From an uncultured SAR86 cluster bacterium (GTDB taxonomy: Bacteria > Pseudomonadota > Gammaproteobacteria > Magnimaribacterales > D2472): a DNA stretch of 33,645 bases. The notes under the pieces were generated by a model, which was given only the letters and a program-made list of their open reading frames with translations, did no database searches and was not told where the DNA came from. Position 1 is the stretch's first letter. Every line of letters starts with the position of its first letter. The stretch covers positions 1 through 33,645 of the forward strand of contig CACDVW010000014.1 of the NCBI GenBank assembly GCA_902556355.1. Direction: 5' to 3'. A program made the position numbers and the translations under genes. Below, piece after piece: positions 5,163 through 5,418 of this stretch.

Positions 5163-5190
5163 TTGACATAAATTCTAAAAGGAGTATATT
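5163..5190 (+). promoter_or_regulatory. Sigma70-type promoter of the unassigned RNA
   Basis: A perfect -35 TTGACA (5163-5168), a 16-bp spacer and a -10 TATATT (5185-5190) predict a start near 5197. It is the best promoter by eye in the window. It faces a stretch with no reading frame that ends in a terminator, which is the arrangement expected of a stable RNA gene. Confidence 0.75.
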
Positions 5191-5196
5191 TAATAG

Positions 5197-5418
5197 ACCA
5201 ACTTGATTCCGACTAACAATCAACTGCAGACGGGAGTTAGAGAGGTCAAGGAGGAAGAGCCCATAGGGTGAAAGCGTTGCTAAGAGTCGACGATAAAAAA
5301 GAGCTTAGTAACCCACCAAGAGTTCAAGAGAAAGAACTCAAGGAGCCAGAGAAAATCTCACTTTGGACCCCTAAGGATCTCGAACTTAAAGAAACAGAGC
5401 TAGTCTCTGTTTTTTTTC
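5197..5418 (+). ncRNA. Unassigned structured non-coding RNA, about 220 nt
   Basis: A strong promoter and a clear terminator delimit this stretch, which has no convincing reading frame and is visibly richer in G+C than the flanking gaps. Helices can be drawn by hand. CTAAC 5213-5217 pairs with GTTAG 5236-5240. GTTGCTAAG 5276-5284 pairs with CTTAGTAAC 5304-5312 (one G-U). GAGTTC 5320-5325 pairs with GAACTC 5334-5339, with CC/GG outside a symmetric AA/AA loop. GAGA 5349-5352 pairs with TCTC 5356-5359 inside CCA/TGG. GGTCAAG 5244-5250 may pair with CTTTGGACC 5361-5369 to close the central part. Six GGA triplets occur, several between helices, which would be compatible with a CsrA-sequestering RNA, but the count is low. 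I do not recognise the family; it is not RNase P, tmRNA, SRP RNA or an obvious 6S RNA. It is convergent with oadB. Confidence 0.65.
5391..5418 (+). terminator. Rho-independent terminator of the RNA gene, possibly bidirectional
   Basis: The stem ACAGAG/CTCTGT, extendable by A-T pairs, closes a CTAGT loop and is followed by eight or more T. Read on the minus strand, the same hairpin is followed by TTTCTTT, so it could also end the oad transcript, whose stop lies only 10 bp away at 5428. Confidence 0.9.

Follow-up and report, generated by a model that had tools for sequence, protein, structure and literature searches.

The DNA at positions 5163-5418 of the window (the whole stretch of 33,645 nucleotides that was analysed) is the gene of IMES-1, an RNA family already catalogued in Rfam (RF02034). 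The window matches the RF02034 model at full length with 200 bits, against a gathering score of 81 bits, and IMES-1 is the sole Rfam family over threshold in the window. Thus, the sequence-only reading, which called this RNA unassigned, is not correct on this point, and the Rfam covariance-model search that it proposed gave the strong match to a known family that, in its own words, would make the element ordinary. IMES-1 RNA is described as highly abundant in marine metatranscriptomes and, to our knowledge, no function has been given for it for over a decade since it was catalogued. We propose, with a probability of roughly three in four, that IMES-1 is a stand-alone, trans-acting RNA of about 220 nt, copies of which associate through two kissing loops, A and B, while a contact between the loops of hairpins P4 and P5 holds its second domain. 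This length is estimated from the positions of the promoter and the terminator. To the catalogued features of IMES-1, the present analysis adds the proposed self-pairing of loops A and B, the contact between P4 and P5, and the distribution across the order; the description of IMES-1 by Weinberg et al. in 2009 is not known to contain any of these. A literature search found no paper on IMES-1, with the 2009 originals lying outside that search, so that the palindromes may have been noted earlier, and a search on RNA assembly and SAR86 small RNAs gave no SAR86 small-RNA report among the matches listed. The features of the gene are summarized in Table 1.

Table 1. Positions of the IMES-1 gene and of its structural elements in the window.
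Feature	Positions	Strand	Evidence
Sigma-70 type promoter, TTGACA-16-TATATT	5163..5190	+	11/12 consensus bases
IMES-1 RNA core (RF02034, model positions 1-191)	5202..5394	+	cmscan 200 bits, E 9.9e-46
Domain 1: P1 (5202-5206 with 5246-5250), P2 (5213-5217 with 5236-5240)	5202..5250	+	Pairing; P2 covaries
Loop A palindrome CTGCAG (flanks AA..A), proposed symmetric kissing loop	5224..5229	+	Conserved self-complementarity
Domain 2, closing stem Pc: GAG 5257-5259/CTC 5379-5381; CC/GG; AGGG 5265-5268/CCCT 5369-5372	5257..5381	+	Covariation
Stem P3 (5276-5284 with 5304-5312), bears loop B	5276..5312	+	Covariation
Loop B palindrome GTCGAC on P3, proposed symmetric kissing loop	5286..5291	+	Self-complementary in 121/121 copies
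Hairpin P4 (5320-5325 with 5334-5339), loop GAGA 5328-5331	5320..5339	+	Covariation; complementary to P5 loop
Hairpin P5 (5346-5351 with 5361-5366), loop TCTC 5356-5359	5346..5366	+	Covariation; complementary to P4 loop
Intrinsic terminator: 5393-5399 pairs with 5405-5411, T run 5410-5417	5393..5417	+	Conserved helix

The sequence-only reading described a structured RNA with its own promoter and terminator between oadB and a dioxygenase gene. All three elements are present at 5163-5417, and the placement is as claimed. The promoter is near-consensus, as had been stated, and of the 79 copies from the same family as the window (f1) that have letters at that place, 78 retain TTGAC of its -35 element. 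The terminator was described as clean, and it does consist of a hairpin and a T run; its helix (helix 8) is paired in 99.3% of the cells of the 81 f1 copies and is kept in nearly all of them. A simple terminator scan reports the 5393-5417 terminator on the minus strand only, not on the plus strand, probably because the A-rich side of the hairpin pairs with the T run and thereby consumes it. The minimum free energy of the region 5196-5417 is -62.6 kcal/mol (z -3.39), and none of 200 shuffles is as low. The stretch is overlapped by three reading frames (22, 45 and 58 codons), none of which is conserved; in 28 of 80 same-family copies, the 58-codon frame has a TAG at the corresponding alignment position. 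A coding role is therefore rejected, in agreement with the earlier statement that the stretch holds no reading frame. GGA triplets occur seven times in 5163-5418, once in the promoter spacer and six times in the RNA, the latter being the number that had been counted. The neighbours in the window, the indoleamine 2,3-dioxygenase gene and oadB, are both located on the strand opposite to IMES-1. The genes flanking IMES-1 differ between families, so that IMES-1 looks like a stand-alone gene. A role as a cis-regulator of a neighbouring gene is rejected, because the flanking genes are not constant between families.

The fold of IMES-1 is branched and consists of two domains, of which one contains P1 and P2 with loop A, and the other contains the closing stem Pc around P3 (with loop B), P4 and P5. 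It was analysed with an alignment of 81 f1 copies, which are the distinct cores among the fetched loci rather than all f1 matches, with copies cut by contig ends excluded. When the Rfam structure is placed on these copies, 423 cells are changed on both sides, compared with 165 in shuffles. In an alignment of 35 sequences from f1 and two other families of the same order (f2 and f4), the common structure is paired in 90.1% of the cells and double-sided changes are found in 219 cells, compared with 68.4 in shuffles; the paired cells fall to 50% or less when the partner is slid by one base. These results indicate that the consensus structure of IMES-1 is kept by covariation; for the outer stem P1, this applies only if the register is shifted. 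P1 as drawn is paired in just 32.7% of the cells of the 81 f1 copies because its register shifts between subgroups, and it was left out of the model. Pc is also present in the per-family consensus folds, and all nine of the nine pairs of P3 show changes on both sides across the three families. The alignment of relatives that had been called for gives helices that covary across three families, and the claim of a conserved, stand-alone structured RNA gene is supported. An RNAalifold fold of an alignment including the terminator, in which domain 2 is paired with the terminator region, is distrusted, and the Rfam structure is used.

The genome that contains the window has a size of 1.07 Mb and is 75% complete. 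In f1, IMES-1 is matched in 84 of 107 genomes (81 above the cut-off), which cover all 10 genera and often contain two copies, and in 17 of the 19 near-complete genomes; no match is obtained at E 0.001 in 23 of the 107, including two of the 19. Order-wide, it is matched in 128 of 203 genomes (121 above the cut-off) and in 26 of the 40 near-complete ones. Strong matches are found in the three families f1, f2 and f4. In a further family of the order (f3), weak matches of 31-35 bits are found in four genomes of one genus (G108, G123, G124 and G128; L261-L264). These relatives are shorter and keep loop A, the promoter and the terminator, and their second half is different; in the sequences shown, a gene beginning like trpS, as judged by eye, comes next. 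When applied to 369 genomes sampled from the class, a wider covariance model (R1), built from 35 sequences of f1, f2 and f4, matches four, all of which belong to the order. A pattern search of named public genomes for IMES-1 gave 100 stretches, most of which are from SAR86 cluster bacteria. From its named members, we infer that the entire order corresponds to SAR86.

Good IMES-1 copies with promoter and terminator are also located on two contigs of 43% G+C, which are labelled Pseudohongiella (L116:539) and Woeseiaceae (L199:6238). The former copy is upstream of a gene of the IMP dehydrogenase/GMP reductase family, and the latter is downstream of pnp. Occurrence of IMES-1 outside the order is therefore possible, and transfer out of SAR86 or a mixed assembly may be responsible for these copies. 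An IMES-1 fragment (L213:1-121) abruptly ends a viral contig of 2.4 kb, with the junction near the loop A palindrome; the longest frame of this contig resembles a portal protein by eye, and the contig looks like a chimeric assembly. Two identical copies of IMES-1 per genome, as under concerted evolution, are present in G025, G026, G027, G046, G050, G051, G089, G094 and G101, and the copies are 1-8 kb apart on one contig in the first six of these genomes.

Loops A and B were found by sliding a six-base window along the RNA of each family and looking for places where self-complementarity is maintained; a total of 121 copies was scanned (81 from f1, 24 from f2 and 16 from f4). The f2 and f4 copies were not made distinct, and 14 of the 16 f4 copies differ in the folded part. 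When GU pairs are allowed, loop B is self-complementary in 81/81 f1, 24/24 f2 and 16/16 f4 copies. It is represented by eight hexamers in f1, four in f2 and four in f4, 12 of which are distinct overall, and its middle bases (p3-p4) are CG in 71 copies, TA in 30, AT in 15, TG in three and GC in two. Loop A is represented by two hexamers in total, CTGCAG in 97 of the 121 copies (all of f1 and f4) and CTCGAG in 24 (all of f2), so that its middle switches from GC to CG between families. The CTCGAG loop A is also found in the four f3 relatives, in which loop B is absent as judged by eye. In 121/121 copies, each of the two palindromes is flanked by purines on both sides, and a review describes flanking purines that stack on kissing helices of this type (PMC7357161). 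The middle bases of a palindrome are adjacent and cannot pair with each other within one strand, and therefore a palindrome that changes its sequence, yet stays self-complementary, points to pairing between two copies of the molecule. Other fully self-complementary windows carry one unchanging hexamer (TTCGAA in f2 and AGATCT in f4), and such single unchanging palindromes have no weight either way.

The lenient measure alone is unspecific, because three windows of RNase P RNA are also fully self-complementary, with three to four hexamers, when GU pairs are allowed. A stricter test was therefore adopted, in which a fully self-complementary window must contain at least two different Watson-Crick palindromes. 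This test is passed by loop B alone, which is one of 229 windows in f1, one of 218 in f2 and one of 293 in f4, and by none of the 297 windows of the RNase P RNA of 20 relatives. The palindrome scan of the pooled alignment of all families gives no such window, probably because loop B is misaligned between families. On a tree of the RNA from which the hexamer was removed, loop B needs 25 hexamer changes and 41 substitutions, with the ancestors restricted to the 12 observed hexamers. When the same substitutions were placed on the same branches and columns in 5000 simulations, the fraction of self-complementary tips was 0.32 on average and 0.876 at maximum, compared with 1.00 observed. Loop B is also self-complementary in 11 of 11 extra copies outside the set of 121, including the viral-contig fragment L213, which were obtained with a search pattern that fixed the first two bases of the hexamer. 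The loop B hexamers are mutually compatible in all 24 of the 24 genomes with two fetched copies, a count that leaves out G159 because its second copy was not fetched; nine of these genomes add little, because their two RNAs are identical. Some of the predicted loop B duplexes are weak (-2.6, -3.4 and -4.0 kcal/mol).

The loop of P4 (GAGA) is complementary to the loop of P5 (TCTC) by at least four bases in 110 of the 118 copies that could be parsed, and by only three bases in eight; the other three of the 121 were omitted because the parser could not handle them. Shuffled P5 loops reach a four-base match in 7% (f1), 4% (f2) and 20% (f4) of the cases. The match stops at four bases in 64 of the 118 copies (at GAGA in 63), so that a fifth pair is not general. 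This fifth pair varies on both sides, being GAGAA/TTCTC in 21 copies and GAGAT/ATCTC in 24, and one copy has the match GAAGA/TCTTC. These results give some covariation support to a loop-loop contact between P4 and P5. The contact is read as an intramolecular one because the two hairpins adjoin, and it could be formed between molecules instead.

Kretsch et al. (2025) take covariation between directly neighbouring loop bases of OLE and GOLLD as support for pairing between molecules, and cryo-EM of these two RNAs shows symmetric kissing loops at those loops (PMC12286853). The combination that marks such loops, self-complementarity with covariation of adjacent bases, is found in IMES-1, and by the same argument IMES-1 should self-associate through its two palindromic loops. 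Loop A (CTGCAG or CTCGAG) would pair with its counterpart in another copy, and so would loop B, the variable palindrome on the P3 hairpin; the loops of P4 and P5 would stabilize the fold of domain 2. Such pairing between molecules probably takes place in the cell. Because each molecule has two self-pairing loops, two copies may close on each other through both contacts, or a larger number may join into a chain or ring; sequence alone does not distinguish the closed dimer from these longer assemblies. A protein-independent assembly of more than two copies, in which A-A and B-B contacts build rings, chains or cages, is a tentative extension of this model that we do not expect to be the case, but consider worth stating. 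As a guess, the role of the assembly may be structural or sequestering, in the form of an RNA complex that needs neither Hfq nor CsrA.

Instead of a second IMES-1 molecule, the palindromic loops might recognize different RNAs or dimeric proteins in trans. Any RNA with the same palindrome is able to pair with such a loop, and a partner RNA of this type is the main rival to self-pairing. However, the hexamer shifts among 12 sequences and is always self-complementary, and paralogues within one genome are compatible with each other. A protein-binding site should keep its sequence, and an RNA partner would need to track each change. We consider binding to such partners unlikely for these reasons, and prefer self-association of IMES-1. 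Dependence on Hfq, either as an Hfq-dependent small RNA or as an Hfq sponge, is rejected, because Hfq (PF17209) is found in none of 14 genomes of the order, compared with 5 of 14 control genomes. The six GGA triplets of the RNA, and a median of six per copy in f1, suggest the CsrB/RsmY-like RNA that the sequence-only reading offered as one idea, which would sequester CsrA via GGA motifs. However, CsrA (PF02599) is found in none of 25 f1 genomes (nine of which are at least 90% complete, and one of which is the 75%-complete genome of the window) and in none of five f4 genomes, and these two families carry IMES-1. It is found in 11 of 11 genomes of the sister families f2 and f3, so that IMES-1 occurs both with and without CsrA. 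Moreover, copies with only one or two GGA triplets exist, and only one GGA site is retained across the three families (77/81 in f1, 20/24 in f2 and 16/16 in f4), with its GG predicted to pair with CC; f4 alone has three GGA sites in 14-16 of its 16 copies. Sequestration of CsrA by IMES-1 is thus scarcely credible.

The other idea of that reading, a divergent 6S RNA, which would bind RNA polymerase, is in accordance with the similar length of IMES-1 and with its free-standing gene and near-consensus promoter, but is very improbable. A separate 6S RNA is present in 97 of 107 f1 genomes, including that of the window itself (G000:C12), which argues that IMES-1 is not a divergent 6S RNA. 6S RNA has the shape of one long bulged hairpin, unlike the branched, two-domain fold of IMES-1, and a permissive covariance scan at the place of IMES-1 gives no match to 6S RNA (RF00013), RNase P RNA (RF00010) or signal recognition particle RNA. 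The statement that the hallmarks of RNase P RNA, tmRNA and signal recognition particle RNA are absent agrees with the lack of covariance-model matches to these RNAs in IMES-1. Identity with RNase P RNA is rejected, because RF00010 gives no match at the locus and a separate gene is found in 92 of 107 f1 genomes; RNase P RNA is not found in the incomplete (75%) genome of the window. A likeness to RNase P RNA noticed by eye is unsupported by covariance models. Identity with tmRNA is rejected as well, because tmRNA has a separate gene in 14 of 14 genomes of the order. At a threshold of E 0.001, the 4.5S model (RF00169) gives no match in any of 14 genomes from the order, compared with matches in 11 of 14 controls (nine over the cut-off), and 4.5S RNA may be lost from the order, very divergent or missed by the search. 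This result would permit IMES-1 to replace a missing housekeeping RNA, such as the 4.5S signal recognition particle RNA, but IMES-1 does not match signal recognition particle RNA in the permissive scan, and no hairpin resembling domain IV is seen by eye. Such a replacement is therefore hardly to be expected, and association of IMES-1 copies through loops A and B is the reading retained.

If the loops pair between molecules, they provide a testable route into the function of IMES-1, an RNA of only about 220 nt. A small, order-wide and probably housekeeping RNA of SAR86 would then join the few natural self-assembling RNAs, and would do so in bacteria in which Hfq is not found (0/14 genomes). If more than two copies assemble, few natural RNAs that form such complexes would be smaller than IMES-1, and it would be a core component of a common bacterial group of the surface ocean.

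The RNA of the window belongs to the same family as IMES-1 of Rfam (RF02034), with a full-length match, the same consensus structure and no difference in sequence. 6S RNA, CsrB/RsmY, RNase P RNA and tmRNA are encoded by stand-alone RNA genes, like IMES-1, and give no covariance-model match to it. Among the homo-oligomeric ornate RNAs OLE, ROOL and GOLLD, palindromic loops with covariation of adjacent bases are described for OLE and GOLLD, as in IMES-1 (PMC12286853). IMES-1 differs from these three RNAs in its length of about 220 nt, and its assembly is predicted from sequence, whereas theirs has been seen. We know of no sequence relation of IMES-1 to OLE, ROOL or GOLLD. The dimer initiation loop of HIV-1 and the loop of oskar mRNA, as described in the review text (PMC7357161), resemble those of IMES-1 in having a six-base palindrome with flanking purines. 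These loops are located in long viral or messenger RNAs, whereas the two loops of IMES-1 belong to a small, free RNA.
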